A DNA stretch of 64,000 bases, taken from contig NZ_PGCK01000001.1 in the NCBI RefSeq assembly GCF_021023085.1, positions 248,001 through 312,000 on the forward strand, given 5' to 3'. The DNA is from Methanooceanicella nereidis (lineage in GTDB: Archaea; Halobacteriota; Methanocellia; Methanocellales; Methanocellaceae). The translations under genes were made by a program, and so were the position numbers. The notes beneath the pieces are model-generated. The model was not told the origin of the DNA and did no database searches. It saw nothing but the letters and a program-made list of their open reading frames with translations. This document shows, one piece after another, positions 12,274-47,361 of this stretch (position 1 is the stretch's first letter; each line of letters starts with the position of its first letter).

Positions 12274-14316
12274 TCAGATAAAAATGGTGAACATCACATA
12301 GGCAATAACGGTCATGATTATCGCGTATTTAAGGCCTGACATCCATTTACCTTCACCCATCTGGCCTGCAAGCATTCCCGCACACAGCCCTTGAATGATG
12401 GCCGCATGGAAGAAAAGCCTCACATAATCTTCCGGATTGAACTGTTGTATGAAGGTAGCTCCTGCGGTCGCTGCGGATGAGCTGGCAGCGCTGTTATCAG
12501 CGGCTGATGCCATGACCGGGATAAAGCTGGACGTAAGCGTGTAGACACAATAGATGAACACGCAGAACGAGATGAATATGATCACCACATAGATAAGCAT
12601 CCCGTCAAAACGCTCCCTCCTTATCTGTTCGCCTATTTTCGCGTCATTGGCAGCAACGTTAAGCACATCTTTGATGTCTCCGCTGGATTCGCTGGCCTTT
12701 GTGATAAGGGTCATGACCCTGGTCGACATGCTCGTCTTTAGCGAGTTCGCGAATCTCTTCATGGCAGTATTGACATCTGTGCCCCATTGCATATCACGCC
12801 ATACCTTTTTAACTTCTGAGCTCAATGTGCCGAAGTTCGAGTTCGAAATAAGGTTAAGGGACTGCGTCAGCGTCATACCTGTCTCGTTCGTCGATGCAAG
12901 CTTTTTAAGGAAGTCCGGCATTTCACTGGCGATCCTCTTCGCACGCCTTTCTTTTCGTTCATAGAATAACGAGAGCGGTGTTATCACCAGTAATATGAAG
13001 AATATGAGGAAATCGTCAAAATACCCGATGATAGGTCCATATAATACCAGCGGGTCTCCGGGATCTTTCATCAATCCGTTGCCGATCTTTGTCTGCATGC
13101 TCGATACCTGCTGGAACGCATCCGTCATGTTCGAGAATGTCAGCAGTATCAGGACAGATATGATTATTAAAGCCACAGGAACGCTGATCAATAGCGATAA
13201 CGTCGGGTCGTTCTTTATCGGGCCCAGAGGGTTTGACGTGAATTCCTTGAACTTAAGCTTTTTCTTTGATTCCCTAAGATCCTGTATCAGCTTTTGCTGC
13301 TGCTTCTCGGTTACCCCTGATTCCTCTATGGGCACACTATCATAAGAATTTATTATGGGTATCTCGAACTTTTTAGGGGACTCGTCGTCCGTCGGCGTTA
13401 GCATACTGATAAGGACGACGAACATTACCGAACCGATGGGCAGCACGGCATATACGATAGCATACAGGATGACAGGGCTGCCTCCGTTCATGATGGTCAT
13501 GACAGAGGACATGATTATAATGAATAACGGTCCTGCGACGAACGCAGTCACGTACGACTCTGCGATAAGTCCGAGGATCTCAAGGAATGACTTCTGGTCC
13601 TGCATGACACGCTGTAGGTACTGGTCGGTCTTACCCTGAAGATATACAGTAGCGTCTCCACCACTGTCTATGACAGATAATAGATTCGACAGCAGGTCCT
13701 GAAGCATATCTGAAGGAGTCTGGCCTATACAGTTAAGTATCGCCGTACGAAGGTCGCTGCCGAAGTAGTCCATGTCCCTTATGATCAGGCCGACCTCTTT
13801 GGAAACTTCCCCGTAGGTGTTCTCAGCTTCCTGAAGGGACCTGAGAATGCTGATGACGTCCATGCCGCCTTTGGATAATGCGTACATGAACGTGACCGCG
13901 TACGGTAAGGATTTATTTATCTTGGTCTTACGCTCGCTCGCGTTGAACGAGGGGATGAGCATTACGATGGAATAGGTCACGAAATAGCCTATAAGCGACA
14001 TCAAGGCCATGCCAAATATTATGACAATGATGTCCGTAAATGGCGTAAGGAACGCTAAAGTATCCGGAAGGTGGATATTAGTAAAATTGCCCTGCGCATC
14101 TACCATCCTGAGCACCAGGAAGGCAAGCAAGACGCCTACTATCGCCCCGATGAACCCGATTATGATTGAGACGAGGTAAGCCATCGACACATATACCTCA
14201 TACGATTGAGACATACGTGCCTGCCTGAGCTGTTTTTGAAGGTTATAGAACTTCTCCTTACGCTTTTTTACTTCCCCGCCAAATATAGTGTGTGCGATGG
14301 TGCTTATCTGGTCCAT
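12274..14316 (-). CDS. FlaJ/TadC-like pilus assembly platform membrane protein
   Basis: A protein of 680 residues with two repeats of the type II secretion F (T2SSF) fold and clusters of membrane helices near 60-135, 250-310, 365-440 and 570-680. Each repeat has the typical cytoplasmic helical block (ALSKGGMDVISILRSL at about 145-160; LASTNETGMTLTQSLNLI in the second). Such proteins are the membrane platform that the motor ATPase acts on to assemble archaeal type IV-like pili or archaella. Starts 4 bases after the ATPase stop, so translation is coupled. No pilin gene is next to it. A prepilin peptidase is encoded 30 kb away in this window. Confidence 0.9.
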   Translation of the reverse strand: MDQISTIAHTIFGGEVKKRKEKFYNLQKQLRQARMSQSYEVYVSMAYLVSIIIGFIGAIVGVLLAFLVLRMVDAQGNFTNIHLPDTLAFLTPFTDIIVIIFGMALMSLIGYFVTYSIVMLIPSFNASERKTKINKSLPYAVTFMYALSKGGMDVISILRSLQEAENTYGEVSKEVGLIIRDMDYFGSDLRTAILNCIGQTPSDMLQDLLSNLLSVIDSGGDATVYLQGKTDQYLQRVMQDQKSFLEILGLIAESYVTAFVAGPLFIIIMSSVMTIMNGGSPVILYAIVYAVLPIGSVMFVVLISMLTPTDDESPKKFEIPIINSYDSVPIEESGVTEKQQQKLIQDLRESKKKLKFKEFTSNPLGPIKNDPTLSLLISVPVALIIISVLILLTFSNMTDAFQQVSSMQTKIGNGLMKDPGDPLVLYGPIIGYFDDFLIFFILLVITPLSLFYERKERRAKRIASEMPDFLKKLASTNETGMTLTQSLNLISNSNFGTLSSEVKKVWRDMQWGTDVNTAMKRFANSLKTSMSTRVMTLITKASESSGDIKDVLNVAANDAKIGEQIRRERFDGMLIYVVIIFISFCVFIYCVYTLTSSFIPVMASAADNSAASSSAATAGATFIQQFNPEDYVRLFFHAAIIQGLCAGMLAGQMGEGKWMSGLKYAIIMTVIAYVMFTIFI

Positions 14317-14320
14317 AGTT

Positions 14321-16444
14321 TCAGTCCCTTATGCCAAGCTTTTCAAGAACTCTGTCCGGCCTTACGCTGTATGCCTGAATGATAGCGCTGACCTGCTTGA
14401 AGTCACGTATATTGTTCTTGACCATATACTCCAGCACGCGCTGCCTTCGTAACACTTCGGTGCTCAGGTCTTTTCTGGACCATGCCCTTCTTTGTGCGAT
14501 CTCCGCGAGCATCCTGGACTCTCCGACCCTGTCGAACCTGTCCGTCCCGGAGTTCCATACATAAATATCGTTGGTCCGTATGTTCCTCGTATTCGGGTCG
14601 ATGTCGTGGATCTCCACAAGCTTCATGTTACGCCTGACACGCTTGTTCCTGAGATATGTCTGCGACTGAATGCTGATGATATTGAGCGCCGTGATCATGG
14701 TACGGGGTACGCTTATGGGCGGGTTCTCAAGACGGTGGATGGCCGATTCTACCGAGTCGGCGTGCATTGTCGAGAACGTGGTGTGGCCCGTGGACATCGC
14801 CTGGAATAATGTAAGCGCTTCCTTACCTCTGACCTCACCCACGAGCAGGTATTCGGGACGCTGTCTCAAAGCTGCTTTAAGCAGCGCGAACATCTCTATC
14901 GCGCCTTTGCCGTCCGCAGTGAATGAATCCCTGGTAAGTCCCGGGATCCAGTTCTGGTGAGGCAGTTTTAGCTCTCTTGTATCTTCGAGAGAGATGACCT
15001 TTGCCTTAGGCGGTATGAACAACGCTACCGCGTTAAGGGACGACGTCTTACCCGAAGCCGTTCCTCCAGAGAATATCAGGCTCTTGTTATTCTCTATACA
15101 TATCCACATATAGGCCATGGTCTCCGACGAGAACGTGTTCCACGCGATAAGGTCGATCGGCGTTATGGGTATATCCTTGAACTTACGGATGGTGAACGTG
15201 CTTCCCCTGGTCGTGATCTCCTTACCCAGGGTCATCTGGATACGGGAACCGTCCGGCATCGTCGCATCCACCATCGGCTCAGCGATGGAAATATGCTTTC
15301 CGCAGCGCTGGGCTAATTTTATGACAAATGAGTCAAGCTGTTTTTCCGAGAACGTGATGTTCGTCATGATGTTCTCGTAGTTCTTATGATAAAGGAATAC
15401 CGGTGTATCAAACCCGTTGTTGGAGATATCCTCTATGAAGTTATCGTGCATTATGGCATTGATCTTGCCGAACTCCAGATAATCTCTCTGGATATAATAA
15501 AGGATCTTATGATATGATTTAGTGTCGATCTTGCCGATATAGTCGTTGATGACCTCTGTGGTCTTTAGTTTCAACAGTTCCTTCTTATCGGTCTTTGTGT
15601 CGAGGTCCTCAAGCACTAGAACGTCCTGCAGACGCTCGTAGACTTCTTCAAGCAGCTCTTTTTCAAATACAGTTAATGATGGTTCGACTACATAATAGAG
15701 ATAATTGTTTGTCTGCTCGTTGTAAAGGATGACTATGAAGGAGTACGGTTCGATGACCCAGTAGCGTTCGATCTCCTCATATCCGGCGACTCCCGGAAAT
15801 ACAGACATAGGCCCGTGTTTATCCGGATTGTACGGCTCGAACTCTATTGTCTTTTTAATTTTCTTCTTGTCCTTTACTTTCGAAATGCCTGTCTGCGCAT
15901 CGATGGCAGTCTCTTTCTGTTCAGTCGAGGTGCCCTTGTTAAGCAGTGCATTGAACTCGTTAATAATATCTTCTTCCGACTTTGACGAAGATGAGGGTGA
16001 TACGATAGACTCTCCCGGAACCTCTGTGGAGTGAGATAAAGTACCTTTCAGCCCGATGTCTTTAATAAAGCTCTCTGTGGCCGTGGTAGTTTCCTGCTGC
16101 GCGGCCTCGAACATAGCTGTCTTTTTGAAAATACTTTTAAGCGCTTCAGGCTCGTCGTTTACCGAGACCGGAGTCTCTGCGGCTGGGCTGTCAATATCTG
16201 ATACTACTTTCTCAGTATCATCCTTATCAAGTTTTTCAGGGCCCTGTCCCGGACTTTTTTTAGCGCCGTCTACTGAATCCCCGACCGACGTTGTGATGGG
16301 CTCTGTCGCTACCTGCGATCTCTGTTCATTTTCTTTCTCTGTCTGCTTTTTCTTAAGAAGCCCATAAAAATTTTTTCGATCTTCGTCGTGGAGGTTGATA
16401 TTCAGGTCATTATTTTCCGATTCCGTCACGTTTACCTCTCCCAT
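14321..16444 (-). CDS. type II/IV secretion (VirB11/FlaI-like) pilus motor ATPase
   Basis: A protein of 707 residues. The first about 200 residues are acidic, Ser/Thr/Glu-rich and probably disordered. They are followed by an N-terminal helical domain and a C-terminal RecA-fold ATPase. The Walker A is SGGTASGKTSSLNA (around 455-470). Further on come the Asp box (SLEDTRELKLPHQNW), Walker B (PEYLLVGEVRGKEA) and His box (STGHTTFSTMHADS). This is the hexameric motor that powers assembly of archaeal type IV pili. First gene of a three-gene operon with the platform and RecA-like genes. A TATA-like run on the minus strand near 16581-16594 would leave a leader of about 110 bases. The long acidic extension is unusual and could be a docking arm. 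Confidence 0.92.
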   Translation of the reverse strand: MGEVNVTESENNDLNINLHDEDRKNFYGLLKKKQTEKENEQRSQVATEPITTSVGDSVDGAKKSPGQGPEKLDKDDTEKVVSDIDSPAAETPVSVNDEPEALKSIFKKTAMFEAAQQETTTATESFIKDIGLKGTLSHSTEVPGESIVSPSSSSKSEEDIINEFNALLNKGTSTEQKETAIDAQTGISKVKDKKKIKKTIEFEPYNPDKHGPMSVFPGVAGYEEIERYWVIEPYSFIVILYNEQTNNYLYYVVEPSLTVFEKELLEEVYERLQDVLVLEDLDTKTDKKELLKLKTTEVINDYIGKIDTKSYHKILYYIQRDYLEFGKINAIMHDNFIEDISNNGFDTPVFLYHKNYENIMTNITFSEKQLDSFVIKLAQRCGKHISIAEPMVDATMPDGSRIQMTLGKEITTRGSTFTIRKFKDIPITPIDLIAWNTFSSETMAYMWICIENNKSLIFSGGTASGKTSSLNAVALFIPPKAKVISLEDTRELKLPHQNWIPGLTRDSFTADGKGAIEMFALLKAALRQRPEYLLVGEVRGKEALTLFQAMSTGHTTFSTMHADSVESAIHRLENPPISVPRTMITALNIISIQSQTYLRNKRVRRNMKLVEIHDIDPNTRNIRTNDIYVWNSGTDRFDRVGESRMLAEIAQRRAWSRKDLSTEVLRRQRVLEYMVKNNIRDFKQVSAIIQAYSVRPDRVLEKLGIRD

Positions 16445-41488: not shown

Positions 41489-42775
41489 TTAACTGCTCTG
41501 TCCGTCGTTAAGCCTGAGGTTAATACGCTCCTCGAACTGTTTTACGGCGCGTATCATGTCATCCTGCTTGAGCTTTGTACGGTCCTCTGTTAAAGCGTTC
41601 AACACGGCCTCCCTGACGACCAGGCGCAAGTCTGAGCCCGAATAGTTCTCGGTCATCATCGCAAGCTGTTTAAGGTCGAATTCGCCGTCTATAGGCTCCA
41701 GGACCATCTCGAATATCTTCTGCCTCATGTCCATATCCGGAAGCGGGAACATGACGATCTCGTCAAACCTTCTCCATGCCGCACTGTCGAGCAGTTTCGG
41801 GTGGTTGGTCGCGCCTATCAGAAGGACGCCGTCGTTGACAAGGCTTATGTCATCGATACACTTTAAGAGCGTGTTGACGGCTCTCTTGAGCGCTGCATGC
41901 TCGTCCGACGTACGGGTCTTTGCCACGAAGTCGAACTCGTCGATGAACAGGATGCACGGGCTAAGCTTTTTCGCCAGCTCGAATACCTTATCTATGTTCT
42001 TGGAGGTCTCGCCGAGGTATTGAGAGGTAATCATGGATAGCTTGACCTCAAGGAACGGCAGGCCTAGCTTCGCAGACATCGCCCTTGCCGTAGATGTCTT
42101 TCCGGTTCCCGGAGGCCCTACGAACAGTAGCTTGCCTATTTCGCGAAGGCCTATCTGGCGAAGGTAATCACGGTACTGTATTGCCTTGACTATCTTTTCG
42201 ACCTCTGCGTTCTGCTCCTGGGTAAGGACTATCTCGTCGAATTTTTGCTGAATGTCCTCGGGAGGATAAATGTGCACGAGCTTAAGCATCTCGATGGAGT
42301 CGGCGCCTTCTTCTGCGACGCTCTTACTAAGCCCCTCTATCCAGCCGCGATCGGACTCCTTCGATGGGTTCCTGGCGCGGACGTCCTTATAGTCCACATC
42401 AAAGGTTCCGTAGTTCTGATAGTAAAACGCTAACACAGGGTTAGTGTTAATACGATCCTTCACCTCTTTCTTGGCAAACCACTTGGTTCCCAGGTCCAGG
42501 ACCGTAAGCGTATATATGGACCCGAACTCGTCGAAGTTAACGAATGGCAGTGAGGACATGATCGATTTAGCGTTATCAAGGTCATAGATCGCCTTGATGT
42601 CCGAATCCACCACCTTTATCGGCCTTTTGACCTTTTTAGTCGCAGGGTCCCAGTAATGTTTTCGCATATTAGGCGGCAGGTCATCTTCATTCAAGTTACC
42701 TGAGTTATTGTAAATCTCCGCCGTGAGCAAAAGCTCTAAAACGTCGAGTATTTCTTTTTCATCAATATTTGCCAT
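41489..42775 (-). CDS. AAA-family ATPase
   Basis: About 428 residues. A single AAA module has Walker A FVGPPGTGKTSTARAM, Walker B CILFIDEFDFVAK and sensor-1 GATNH, followed by AWRRFDEIVMFPLPD. The N-terminal about 190 residues are a distinct helical domain lacking the coiled coil and OB fold of the proteasome activator PAN, so it is not PAN. The ATG at 42775 has GGAAGGT before it; an upstream start would be 42793. It resembles Cdc48-like or archaeal-specific AAA proteins that remodel an unknown target. The MBL hydrolase follows immediately. The neighbouring gene upstream is a prepilin peptidase, but separated by a 130-base gap. Confidence 0.88.
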   Translation of the reverse strand: MANIDEKEILDVLELLLTAEIYNNSGNLNEDDLPPNMRKHYWDPATKKVKRPIKVVDSDIKAIYDLDNAKSIMSSLPFVNFDEFGSIYTLTVLDLGTKWFAKKEVKDRINTNPVLAFYYQNYGTFDVDYKDVRARNPSKESDRGWIEGLSKSVAEEGADSIEMLKLVHIYPPEDIQQKFDEIVLTQEQNAEVEKIVKAIQYRDYLRQIGLREIGKLLFVGPPGTGKTSTARAMSAKLGLPFLEVKLSMITSQYLGETSKNIDKVFELAKKLSPCILFIDEFDFVAKTRTSDEHAALKRAVNTLLKCIDDISLVNDGVLLIGATNHPKLLDSAAWRRFDEIVMFPLPDMDMRQKIFEMVLEPIDGEFDLKQLAMMTENYSGSDLRLVVREAVLNALTEDRTKLKQDDMIRAVKQFEERINLRLNDGQSS

Positions 42776-42907
42776 AGTTACCTTCCGCGTCATGTAAATT
42801 TCAATGTTAGTTAGCTCTAGTACTTGTTGTTTTCGGTTACATATACATTTTGGGCTTTATGTTTTAGGACCCAAAGTTTAAAATATTTACTCTCGCAGTC
42901 AAAATGT

Positions 42908-43702
42908 TCATAATAGCAACATTATGGAACCGATGAGCTGCATCAGGATATCTCCCCAAATGGCTGCAGTTAAGAAGCCCAGTGTGATAGGGATGAGGAA
43001 CGGTAGCTTAGGAGTTATCCATACTTTATCCCCGATTTTTCCTTCCTTATTCCATTTCATTAATTTATTGAATAGTTTTTCATCTGCTTCCGAACCGCTA
43101 AACTTCACCCGTCTCTCGACATTGCCGTCGTTTTCTTCATACTGATGCATAAGGCGTACATGTTTCCCTTTGATGTCCTCGATTTTCATCATATATCCTG
43201 TGAATGCTCCGAGCGGATTTGACTTCAGCTCAGGGAAAGACACCGTGAACAGGTTCCTGATGAATACGGTTATGGGCACAATAAGTGTAAGCACTACAGC
43301 GTTGCCAAGCACCGCCAGCGAAAATATGGGAGATCTTACACCGGTAGATAAAGGCAGTATCGTGCCGGAAATTAAGACTTCCGGGTACAATGGGAACAAT
43401 ATGGCTATTGCGATGAGCGATTTGGCATCTGCGCCCCCGAATCCCCCCACCCTGAATATCACATAAACAAGGACATAGATGAATATGACCCCGATGGCAA
43501 GGTAGATCAGGAAATAATAGTCAAATGACCTGACCCAGAACTCTATGAACCCCAGAACTATGCCGGCGCCTCCGAGGACATACCATAGCTGGTTGGGTGC
43601 CCGCCTTGACCTCCAGTCCGTGACGCATGAGTATGAAAGTATCGCTGTACAAATGATTATACGAATAATGTTTAGAAGATTGATCAGTTCCCAGGGAAAC
43701 AT
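42908..43702 (-). CDS. archaeal A24-family prepilin peptidase (FlaK/EppA-like)
   Basis: A protein of 264 residues with about six membrane helices. The two catalytic Asp motifs are CVTDWRSRRAPN (about 26-37) and GGFGGADAKSL (about 87-97). Between helices 5 and 6 lies a soluble domain (about 160-235) typical of the archaeal preflagellin type. It cleaves the class III leader of type IV-like pilins and archaellins. Candidate substrates for the FlaI/FlaJ motor at 12-16 kb, although no pilin gene was found in the window. Next to an actin-like gene on the same strand. Confidence 0.85.
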   Translation of the reverse strand: MFPWELINLLNIIRIIICTAILSYSCVTDWRSRRAPNQLWYVLGGAGIVLGFIEFWVRSFDYYFLIYLAIGVIFIYVLVYVIFRVGGFGGADAKSLIAIAILFPLYPEVLISGTILPLSTGVRSPIFSLAVLGNAVVLTLIVPITVFIRNLFTVSFPELKSNPLGAFTGYMMKIEDIKGKHVRLMHQYEENDGNVERRVKFSGSEADEKLFNKLMKWNKEGKIGDKVWITPKLPFLIPITLGFLTAAIWGDILMQLIGSIMLLL

Positions 43703-43789
43703 AGCCTAAAAAATGTACTATAACATATAAATTCTTTATTACACAGAGAACAAAAAATATAGAAAAAGAGTATATCCGGAAGGATATAC

Positions 43790-44929
43790 TTAGTCGCGGT
43801 AATTCAACGTGTATTCTGAGATCCTGTATGCGCCTATCGCAGGAGCAAGGTCCGGCCTGTCGCTGGATATTACGGTGACCTTCTGCTCGAGCTCATCAGA
43901 TAGCAGCATCTCGACACGCTCTTTGAGCCCGGGTATGCATGCCATTCCGCCCGTCAGTATTATCGGCTCGGACAGTACCCTCTTGTAGGTCTGATAGTGG
44001 TCCTGAGCCAGCTGCGGGAAGAAGTTTTCCATGATAGCCTCTATGACGTTGTTAACGTACTCTTCGACGGGCTTCATGATGCTTTTCTCGATCTTAAAGC
44101 CATACTGGCCGCGGTCATGAATATGCACTGAATCGTATACGGGCTTGTATTCGATGAAGTTCGCGAACTCCTCTTTGTATTTCCTTGCGGTGTTAAGGTC
44201 TATGTTCACGATACCCTGTGTCTCGTTCTGTACACCGAGCCTTATCTTTCTATCGACTATATTGCCGCTGATAGTGCCTAAGGTCACTGTGTGCACAGGC
44301 TCTCCGTTCCTGAATGCGCTTATCTCTAAAGTCGTCGAGCCCATATTGACGCTCATGAAAGTCTTCTTGATCGCATCAAGGCCGTCGAACGCAGGTATTG
44401 CGCCGCAGAATGCCTCAGACCATGCCTGCCTGCCTGCCCTTCCTATGGACATGCCGGATATGATCTCTTTAAGGTTCTTGCGTCCCCTGTCGTTCTCGAC
44501 CGCGGGGTGAGCCAGCGTAACATAGCTGTTCTCAGGTATGTTATATTTATAAACAAGATATTCGATGAACTGCGCTGCAAGCTTTACGCTGTCCTCATCC
44601 TGAGGAAGTCCGGCGCGGAACATGAAATATACCGAATCGGCGTATTCTTCTGCGGCTTCATCACCAAACTTCGTGGCGAGCTTTCCCGTGAACAGGTCCC
44701 TGTATCTTGCCACGCAGGTAAGAGTCCTGACAATGTCAAGCGTGCCTTCGTAGTTAGGCATTACGAGCACCGTACGGGTAGAACCGATCTTCAGACCTAT
44801 TGGTATGGCATCTGATTCCTTTCTTTTAAGATAGCCACCGGCCTCAACGAGCCCGAACTCGACATCGTTCTCCATACCGGCTCCATCAGCCGCTAATTCC
44901 CCACTCGGATTTTTATTAGCTTCCACCAT
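43790..44929 (-). CDS. actin/MreB-like fold protein with altered nucleotide loops
   Basis: A protein of 379 residues. It has the ASKHA fold: phosphate-1-like PIGLKIGSTRTVLV (about 43-56), phosphate-2-like VNMGSTTLEISAF (about 194-206) and adenosine-type ILTGGMACIPGLKERV near 340-355. In actin, MreB and FtsA the first loop has D.G[TS] and the second D.G.... Here they are K47 and N195. Loss of both catalytic Asp residues suggests altered or absent hydrolysis. N-terminal about 25 residues look disordered. It lies 16 bases behind a transmembrane surface protein on the same strand and before a prepilin peptidase. PilM, the actin-like partner of bacterial type IV pili, is a distant analogy. Confidence 0.8.
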   Translation of the reverse strand: MVEANKNPSGELAADGAGMENDVEFGLVEAGGYLKRKESDAIPIGLKIGSTRTVLVMPNYEGTLDIVRTLTCVARYRDLFTGKLATKFGDEAAEEYADSVYFMFRAGLPQDEDSVKLAAQFIEYLVYKYNIPENSYVTLAHPAVENDRGRKNLKEIISGMSIGRAGRQAWSEAFCGAIPAFDGLDAIKKTFMSVNMGSTTLEISAFRNGEPVHTVTLGTISGNIVDRKIRLGVQNETQGIVNIDLNTARKYKEEFANFIEYKPVYDSVHIHDRGQYGFKIEKSIMKPVEEYVNNVIEAIMENFFPQLAQDHYQTYKRVLSEPIILTGGMACIPGLKERVEMLLSDELEQKVTVISSDRPDLAPAIGAYRISEYTLNYRD

Positions 44930-44945: not shown

Positions 44946-47048
44946 TTACTTATCTCCATCAAGTCTCCAGACCACGACAGATGACGTGTTATCGAGAGGA
45001 GACATATCATGCGATTTATAATAATATAAACCTTTGACCTTTTCGACATCATCGCTGATGACGAGCTCTTTCATCATTATTGTGAGATTGTTCGGTTGTA
45101 TGTCCAGGTCGTTGCTCATCTGTATGAACGATACTCCATCAGGATGCTCTTTTATATATTTAAGTATCCTCTCTTTATCCTTTATGGTCGACACCGGATC
45201 TTTACCTTGCACCGTGGTCTTCGGTACCTTTATCCTGCCATCTTTTTCAGGCTGCTGCGGCGGTACTGACGACGATTTTGGAGTGTACGGCACGCGTTCG
45301 GCATTCGAATAGGACGACGGGGACTTATACACGTCGCTCGCATATGCGACCGAAGGCTTTTCTGCCGGCTCGCTCTCCTGAATCTTTCCTCCAAGCCTTG
45401 GCAGGTTATTGGCTATGTTTCCAATCCCCTTTACATCAGGCAATATTTTCTTTTCGCCTAATTTCGGCGGTATTGAAGTCGCCGGAGGAGACTCGCGCTT
45501 CGGTGCCTGCTTCTGCTGGTCCTCGGCCCTTTTTTGTTCAGCCTTTTCTGCTTTATGGGCTTTTGCCACGTCTCTGGCGGCTTTGTTATTTTCGACCTTA
45601 TTCTTGTAGGAGTTTGCCACACCGGCGAGAGGTCCCAGGAACATGTTCTTTTTAGAGATAAGCATGTATCCGACGATACCGGCAACGATTATCAATATCA
45701 ATGCCGCTACGACGACGGGTGTCCATGACGGCACAAGCGATCTCTCAAGGCTTGCGAATACCGACTGGTGCTCCTTATTCTCTTCCATCTCGATCATGAA
45801 GGCCTTATCGCTATATCCCTCATAGGCAAGCTTGACCTCATGATTGCCGGCAGGAATATAAGCGACGCATGGCGTCACATACTGTTTCCCGTTCCCGTCG
45901 AGCAATGGCTGGCCGTCAACATATAATGCTGCTCCGGGAGGATCTGAGTTAATGTTAACCCATCCCATCGTAGTGAATGGCAGTTTTATGTCAAGCGTAA
46001 CGTTGCGTGCTGCCTGTTCCATGTTCCATGGCATGATAACGTTGGGGTGGTAAAGCGGAGTGTATTCAGACACGTTAGCTTTGGCACCGTTAGTGTCAGT
46101 ATACTCCACACTTATCATGAAGTTCTTTCTTCCGAATACCTCTTTATCGTCATCGCTTCGGACATCTATGCCGTAGATCTCGAAATAGCCGTCGGCGTTA
46201 GTCTTCGCGGTAAAGATGTCCCTCTTGATATATCGTGACATATCATCGGACTGTTGATATACGGATATTACGGCATCAGCGTAGGGTTTACCATCCTTTG
46301 TCTTGACAGTACCGTTTATCTTATTATGGTATGTCTGAGGTATGCTGGCCGGATCCGGCGAAGATGCCGGCGCCGTAAGAGGCACGGTCACCATCGTAGG
46401 TGCAGGGACATCAGTCAGATAGAGATTTCCTTCTACTGTGACTTGCACTCTTTTTGTGGATTGATATATAACGCCTCCGTTCTCGTGCTGAGCATAGAGG
46501 TTATATGTGCCTTTTGGAAGATAGAATGTGAACTGGCCGTTACCGCCGTTAGTCTTCTGGGCGAACGAGTAGAACGTTTGTTCTCCGGTGGTGCTTACTG
46601 CGTAAACGACACCGTCGATAGTATTACCGTTCTCGTTCTGTATAAAGCCCCAGACATAACCGTATTCCGGAGGCGGGTACAATTCTAACTTAGTATCAGC
46701 CCTATCGACCTGGATGATACCGCTCGTAGCCATGTACCACTTAGTGAGAGAAAGCTTGGTCTCATATACCGTACTGCCTTCTTTATATGATACTTTAACT
46801 TTACATGTATCTGTCTTTAGATTTGCATTGACAAACTCAAAATTACCATTCTGGTCGGTAATGGTTTGATCAACTTCCAGATAGATTGCGTCGATCAGGG
46901 TCGCAACTGCACCCTGTACAGGATTTCCGTGCCTGTCCGTTACCTGTCCCATCACTGTCACGGTATTGCTTCCGGCAGTGGCGTTTGTAATAGCTAGGAC
47001 TGGTAACAGCATGATGCTAATAAGCAATAAACTGAGTATCTTTTTCAT
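44946..47048 (-). CDS. transmembrane protein: CarbReg-like domains, PEGA, TM helix, cytoplasmic winged helix
   Basis: A protein of 700 residues. A signal peptide (1-25) leads to three carboxypeptidase-regulatory-like domains (about 28-100, 130-205 and 243-340) and a PEGA domain (about 361-430: INSDPPGAALYVDGQ, IPAGNHEVKLAYEGY). One membrane helix (about 443-465) follows. The cytoplasmic side has a Lys/Ala/Glu-rich helix (about 475-515), a long Pro/Ser linker and a C-terminal winged helix (about 622-680, GVSFIQMSNDLDIQPNNLTIMMKELV). Such an arrangement could relay a surface signal to DNA. Divergent from amrS; the actin-like gene follows. ATG 47048 has GAGG directly before it. Confidence 0.85.
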   Translation of the reverse strand: MKKILSLLLISIMLLPVLAITNATAGSNTVTVMGQVTDRHGNPVQGAVATLIDAIYLEVDQTITDQNGNFEFVNANLKTDTCKVKVSYKEGSTVYETKLSLTKWYMATSGIIQVDRADTKLELYPPPEYGYVWGFIQNENGNTIDGVVYAVSTTGEQTFYSFAQKTNGGNGQFTFYLPKGTYNLYAQHENGGVIYQSTKRVQVTVEGNLYLTDVPAPTMVTVPLTAPASSPDPASIPQTYHNKINGTVKTKDGKPYADAVISVYQQSDDMSRYIKRDIFTAKTNADGYFEIYGIDVRSDDDKEVFGRKNFMISVEYTDTNGAKANVSEYTPLYHPNVIMPWNMEQAARNVTLDIKLPFTTMGWVNINSDPPGAALYVDGQPLLDGNGKQYVTPCVAYIPAGNHEVKLAYEGYSDKAFMIEMEENKEHQSVFASLERSLVPSWTPVVVAALILIIVAGIVGYMLISKKNMFLGPLAGVANSYKNKVENNKAARDVAKAHKAEKAEQKRAEDQQKQAPKRESPPATSIPPKLGEKKILPDVKGIGNIANNLPRLGGKIQESEPAEKPSVAYASDVYKSPSSYSNAERVPYTPKSSSVPPQQPEKDGRIKVPKTTVQGKDPVSTIKDKERILKYIKEHPDGVSFIQMSNDLDIQPNNLTIMMKELVISDDVEKVKGLYYYKSHDMSPLDNTSSVVVWRLDGDK

Positions 47049-47361
47049 CCTCTAACCATCCGACCTTCTGAATTAAGCTTTTACAACTACAAATATTTTA
47101 TCGTGTTTTCCGATAACTGAATTATTTTTATTAATACGCCGATATATGGCATTTTATTCACATAATGCCCGAATATTTTTATACTCGATAATCACACCCC
47201 AATCTAGCGATATAATATATAAAGCCATCGCTTTTTCGGAAATTTTTTTGGACAAATTAATACGAATAAATTATTATATAAATGCCTGACTTTTTAGTGT
47301 AATGGAGGGATTACATTTAAAGCCGGGAAAAATCATATTTAAATAGTCTGGAGTGAACTCA
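47049..47361. promoter_or_regulatory. divergent promoter region: PEGA protein / amrS
   Basis: A/T-rich and gene-free. On the minus strand GATAAAATATTTG (about 47092-47104) is a TATA-like box for the PEGA gene. On the plus strand TTATTATATAAATG (about 47270-47283) would start amrS transcription near 47303. A 14-codon ATG frame (47302-47346) could be a leader peptide in front of amrS, but the evidence is thin. GTAAT-GGAGGG-ATTAC (near 47299-47314) is a weak hairpin. Confidence 0.45.

Follow-up and report, generated by a model that had tools for sequence, protein, structure and literature searches.

ParMRC is a plasmid segregation system composed of an actin-like gene, a DNA-binding adaptor, and an upstream cis element with iterons (parC).

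Salactin of Halobacterium salinarum forms dynamically unstable filaments that grow out from the poles (PMC10746226). Loss of salactin perturbs DNA distribution at low ploidy and causes no motility defect (PMC10746226). The same study places salactin homologues in Methanocellales, reports poor synteny, and names no partner or anchor (PMC10746226). No described salactin partner was found in the literature searched, a scope that excludes most subscription journals.

ArnR and ArnR1 are membrane-bound regulators of Sulfolobus that possess an N-terminal HTH, a HAMP domain, a sensor, and two C-terminal transmembrane (TM) helices (PMC6396743).

CdvB has an acidic winged helix (wH; segment pI 4.12) that docks a peptide of CdvA, and CdvA is modelled as the membrane recruiter of CdvB (PMC5840170). 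As this precedent shows, DNA binding is not a necessary function of a wH in a cytoskeletal protein.

A membrane protein encoded beside salactin

The window is the whole 64,000-nucleotide stretch of Methanooceanicella nereidis DNA that was analysed. It encodes salactin next to a membrane protein referred to here as TM-wH. The features of the locus are as follows.

47049..47108, (-) strand: conserved single-copy promoter/leader element; 44 of 60 columns invariant in four genomes, no gaps
44946..47048, (-) strand: TM-wH protein, 700 aa, ATG start; surface domains, TM, cytosolic linker, winged helix
46971..47048, (-) strand: signal peptide, residues 1-26; hydrophobic stretch and A-x-A-like site in orthologues
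45999..46958, (-) strand: three CarboxypepD_reg-like beta domains, residues ~31-350; Pfam PF13620 in three stretches, E 2.2e-18
45741..45962, (-) strand: PEGA domain, residues 363-436; PF08308, E 1.1e-8, above cut-off
45654..45722, (-) strand: single transmembrane helix, residues 443-465; hydropathy in 4/4 orthologues, AlphaFold2 helix
45513..45584, (-) strand: basic Lys/Glu/Ala-rich helix after the TM, residues 489-512; AlphaFold2 helix, linker net charge +8 to +10
45318..45347, (-) strand: linker motif AYASDVYKSP, residues 568-577; consensus [FYS]A.[DE][IV]Y[KR][KS], 4/4 orthologues
44949..45185, (-) strand: winged-helix-like domain and conserved tail SSVVVWRLDG, residues 622-700; 72% mean identity, wHTH profile match
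43790..44929, (-) strand: salactin, 379 aa; PF25229 484.8 bits (cut-off 27.1), NF053533 462.9 bits (cut-off 400)
43769..43790, (-) strand: terminator-like hairpin and T-run at the salactin stop
42908..43702, (-) strand: archaeal type II prepilin peptidase (Arc_PepC_II); a single match per genome, adjacent in 3/4

Judged by its profile matches, the actin-like protein is salactin. PF25229 is matched at E=1.7e-145, and both the Pfam and the curated NCBIfam equivalog cut-offs are passed; the filament behaviour is that described for the H. salinarum protein. The salactin start lies 16 nt past the TM-wH stop, as an earlier note on this DNA had placed an actin-like gene, and its identity is now sharpened to salactin.

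TM-wH has only two hydrophobic stretches, at residues ~1-27 (signal peptide) and ~440-466 (TM), and both are present in 4/4 orthologues. The CarboxypepD_reg and PEGA matches each lie above the Pfam cut-off, and the tail past the TM has a net charge of +8 to +10 in the four orthologues. In the AlphaFold2 model of the full protein, the beta domains are mostly confident up to residue ~437, helices span residues 443-465 and 489-512, and confidence is low past residue 511. The domain order given in the earlier note therefore agrees with Pfam, hydropathy, and AlphaFold2, and the topology it proposed, a signal peptide and a single TM, is upheld by all four orthologues and by the positively charged tail. 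N-glycosylation sequons in the orthologues did not separate outside from inside and were of no use for topology. In Foldseek, the ectodomain model matches pilins and adhesins of Gram-positive bacteria, and the list also includes SlaA/SlaB, an archaeal S-layer assembly. The TM-scores are low, as is expected for a flexible multi-domain model.

The comparison is made up of four genomes of one family, Methanocellaceae, which are all those available for the class. TM-wH is found directly upstream of salactin in each of them, on the same strand and with a gap of 13-16 nt. This membrane protein is thus paired with salactin in 4/4 genomes, whereas the H. salinarum study found poor synteny and named no partner. 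Because the order is conserved throughout, the arrangement is not due to chance. The pair is retained in the genome assigned to M. paludicola despite different genes downstream of salactin. Terminator-like hairpins are expected by chance 0.9 times in the region, and what is notable is the position of this one at the salactin stop. Since the pair is conserved and the hairpin lies exactly at that stop, TM-wH and salactin are probably co-transcribed as a two-gene operon. The link between the two genes that the earlier note suggested is borne out by the four genomes, the tight spacing, and the conserved promoter region. The expected co-occurrence across genomes holds within Methanocellaceae (4/4) and fails in haloarchaea and Archaeoglobi, where no TM-wH protein was found beside salactin. 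The adjacency is also weaker than it appears, since regional synteny is generally conserved and the four genomes represent one family.

Upstream, SMC-ScpA-ScpB-MetK and a divergent radical SAM (rSAM) gene are conserved in 4/4 genomes, with the rSAM and metK genes lying between SMC-ScpAB and the operon. Downstream of salactin, three of the four genomes have a prepilin peptidase, an AAA ATPase, and an MBL-fold gene, and the genes differ in the genome assigned to M. paludicola. The prepilin peptidase was rejected as part of the unit and probably lies outside it, since it adjoins salactin in only three of the four genomes and no genome has a second match. The AAA ATPase beside this single prepilin peptidase (41489-42793) has anti-phage IteA as its best NCBIfam match, under cut-off, and is 84% identical to the copies in two other Methanocellaceae genomes. 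At 12274-16444, ~28 kb from salactin, are type IV pilus genes (T2SSF, T2SSE/PilB3).

The cytosolic tail and the upstream element

The four TM-wH orthologues have a mean pairwise identity of 38-40% across the outer domains and 30-39% across the linker (30-43% over ectodomain, linker, and TM). The wH reaches 72%, and its core 80%. Salactin of the other Methanocellaceae is 87-92% identical to the window copy. The genome assigned to M. paludicola also encodes, away from salactin, a paralogue of the ectodomain and TM that ends right after the TM and has no wH. The cytosolic tail is therefore specific to the salactin-linked copy. Slow evolution of the wH and its absence from this paralogue indicate that the wH is the constrained, pair-specific part of the protein.

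A winged-helix fold is likely for this C-terminus, as judged from profile comparison. Pfam gives a weak match under the cut-off (HTH_HVO_0163_N, E=0.026). In hhalign, the profile of the four orthologues matches six archaeal wHTH domains with a probability of 93.8% over 54 columns, and the controls reach <=4.1% (40 column shuffles) and 0.1% (three unrelated neighbour families). The six wHTHs were themselves picked from matches of wH searches, so the comparison checks consistency more than it makes an independent discovery. AlphaFold2 did not fold the isolated wH (pLDDT 42), for which there are too few homologues, and the model is no evidence on the fold. A PDB sequence search with the wH returned a designed protein and chance matches only. 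Across 394 genomes of the phylum, the matches outside Methanocellaceae are generic wHTHs of PAS proteins, short ORFs, and frames with stops, and none is a TM protein beside salactin. One genome (G051) encodes a 107-aa wH-like ORF (E 7e-7) without a TM and has no salactin match.

The wH has a net charge of -3 to -7, compared with 0 to +6 in related wHTHs, and its putative recognition helix contains one Lys and no Arg. Such a charge would be unfavourable to DNA binding, and it is not decisive. The pI of the wH is 5.5-6.1, close to the 6.2-6.3 of the AsnC HTH and the MCM wH encoded in the window, so the charge argument is only moderate. Net charge was dropped as proof against DNA binding for the same reason.

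The 60 bp before the TM-wH start have a mean identity of 84% in the four genomes. Regions of equal length upstream of seven neighbouring genes have 2-18 invariant columns and 43-64% identity, values that are lowered for several genes by ORF starts differing between genomes and that for three genes come from three genomes only. Either half of the element occurs exactly once in each of the four genomes, even with three mismatches, and the element is absent from 96 other genomes of the phylum. It contains a stop codon in frame with the TM-wH gene. A regulatory RNA leader was considered and rejected (folding z = +0.5, no Rfam match). No clear palindrome or repeat was found in the element, and the iteron search gave nothing beyond two AT-rich 24-mers that form a 75% pair upstream in the window and that the other three genomes lack. 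The element resembles a promoter overlapped by a regulatory site, which would fit control by another factor as well as autoregulation through the wH.

The linker motif resembles a sequence found beside another actin. Methanosarcina-type genomes have an actin that is nearer to MreB than to salactin, and in 5/5 loci (L115, L116, L146-L148) the gene after it encodes a coiled-coil protein that carries FTPNIYRKP as an invariant N-terminal motif, the similar motif being VFTPNIYRKP. Two other loci (L117, L149) have an archaellum-D/E-like domain and a giant coiled coil after the actin and no FTPNIYRKP protein. Motif matrices were trained on the four Methanocellaceae linker sequences only and ranked against 2584 other ORFs. 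With a 10-mer matrix, three of the five coiled-coil proteins rank first among these ORFs. With a 13-mer matrix, the best ranks first and the third is at rank 24, and with an 8-mer matrix they are at rank ~19-23 among non-training ORFs. The match is post hoc and length-dependent, and the motif is treated as a suggestive hint of an actin-binding peptide common to both.

Possible roles of the pair

The most economical reading is that the operon of TM-wH and salactin serves an actin filament linked to the envelope, with TM-wH as the envelope-side partner that would contact and anchor it. This is put forward tentatively, at slightly under an even chance. It builds on the architecture, conservation, gene pairing, and conserved upstream region observed in the four genomes. 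TM-wH would be exported, with its beta-domain array in or beneath the S-layer and a single helix through the membrane. In the cytosol, a long tail that is basic and disordered and carries the short motif and the acidic wH would recruit or hold salactin filaments at the membrane. The wH may serve as a docking module, as in CdvB, instead of or besides binding DNA. CdvA-CdvB is similar in its acidic C-terminal winged helix, archaeal cytoskeletal setting, and membrane recruitment. It differs in that CdvB is soluble and belongs to ESCRT-III; TM-wH showed no sequence relationship to it, and Pfam matched no ESCRT-III core domain in TM-wH. Support for the partner reading comes from the pair in 4/4 genomes, the hairpin after salactin, the wH conservation, the tail-less paralogue, the linker motif, the salactin neighbours elsewhere, the CdvB precedent, and the growth of salactin filaments from poles where no anchor is named (PMC10746226). 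Against it stand the few genomes of one family, generally conserved synteny, a post hoc and length-dependent motif match, and the nearness of the other actin to MreB. Of what might hold or control salactin filaments in Methanocella, TM-wH is so far the strongest candidate.

The main rival is a transmembrane one-component regulator, in which the ectodomain senses the envelope and the wH binds the 60-bp element and controls its own gene and salactin. The resemblance of the wH profile to archaeal DNA-binding-type wHTHs agrees with this, as does an upstream region that is exceptionally conserved, single-copy, and operator-like, without significant RNA folding or an Rfam match. Membrane-bound regulators also exist in archaea (PMC6396743), and the absence of any described counterpart claimed in the earlier note was too strong. 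TM-wH has a membrane anchor and a likely HTH-type domain in common with ArnR/ArnR1. Its large exported ectodomain, which ArnR lacks, single TM, and C-terminal wH stand in the reverse order, and the N-terminal HTH, HAMP, sensor, and two C-terminal TMs of the ArnR family are not what it contains. Of the parts of a membrane-bound one-component regulator, the anchor and cytosolic-side topology are present, and the wH is assigned from a profile match (AlphaFold2 pLDDT 42). The negative charge of the wH, its Arg-free recognition helix with one Lys, and an element without a clear palindrome or repeat speak against autoregulation. With a single site, the regulon would moreover be one operon, and a membrane sensor whose ectodomain has 400 residues is elaborate for so small a regulon. 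Autoregulation is accordingly judged unlikely, while far from negligible.

A membrane-anchored, ParR-like DNA tether would have the wH on the element or chromosome and the tail on salactin, and the filament would move or hold DNA at the envelope. The locus resembles ParMRC in its actin-like gene beside a possible DNA-binding adaptor and conserved upstream cis element. It differs in that the adaptor candidate is transmembrane with a surface ectodomain, the locus is chromosomal, and no iteron centromere like parC lies beside the operon. SMC-ScpA-ScpB just upstream in 4/4 genomes and one conserved cis element per genome favour a tether, as does the perturbed DNA distribution at low ploidy on salactin loss (PMC10746226). 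The acidic wH and the intervening rSAM and metK genes do not, and in one genome (G001) the locus is >330 kb from both Cdc6 matches, so proximity to an origin is unsupported there. The tether is considered improbable. The same low standing is given to the broader idea that one protein joins the surface, the dynamically unstable salactin filament, and, by way of its wH, one conserved chromosomal site as a membrane-embedded tether for segregation or nucleoid positioning, each archaeal lineage having its own partner module on salactin. The tether merges the partner and regulator readings, since an adaptor of the ParR type would engage DNA as well as the filament. It is very improbable that TM-wH is an ordinary surface protein, beside salactin merely through conserved synteny. 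In favour of this, the families in its ectodomain are widespread as surface modules and have paralogues within these genomes, and upstream synteny is conserved in general. Strong selective conservation of the wH, tight spacing, a conserved promoter, and the lack of a wH on the paralogues that were read speak against it.

Salactin neighbours in other lineages

Outside Methanocellaceae, salactin usually also has an adjacent, lineage-specific neighbour. The loci examined comprise 22 haloarchaeal and 17 others, where the haloarchaeal and Archaeoglobi labels are our own assignment, with the salactin score among its bases. A small archaellum-D/E-domain protein adjoins salactin on the same strand in 17/22 haloarchaeal loci (L038, L039, L080-L083, L085, L087, L088, L090-L093, L095-L098) and was not seen at L084, L086, L089, L094, and L099. 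PF04659 is present in all seven of these neighbours that were scanned, with E down to 2e-26. Three of the 17 loci also have ParA-like and CheW-like genes close by, with one CheW confirmed.

In the non-haloarchaeal loci, from Archaeoglobi and other non-halophiles, the protein encoded after salactin is coiled-coil or of low complexity and has [ST]PR[IL]L as its C-terminal end in 16/16 cases with a next gene on the contig (L040, L041, L101-L114). The otherwise different 499-aa protein of L113 shares this ending, which is possibly a docking tail. A MinD/ParA-like ATPase follows in most loci, and type IV pilus genes are nearby in some. Neither the archaellum-D/E nor the [ST]PR[IL]L association is reported in the main text of the salactin paper (PMC10746226).

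Salactin is without a described polar anchor or DNA adaptor, and the lineage-specific neighbour genes are named candidates. Beyond Methanocella, these include the archaellum-D/E-domain protein in genetically tractable haloarchaea. With these neighbours comes the question of what salactin is for: partitioning chromosomes, organising archaella and pili at the poles, or both tasks. One further genome (G063, L111:4614-5987) encodes a 457-aa protein, apparently exported and membrane-anchored and with no Pfam match, 14 nt upstream of salactin. It is a second lineage with a surface protein directly upstream of salactin.
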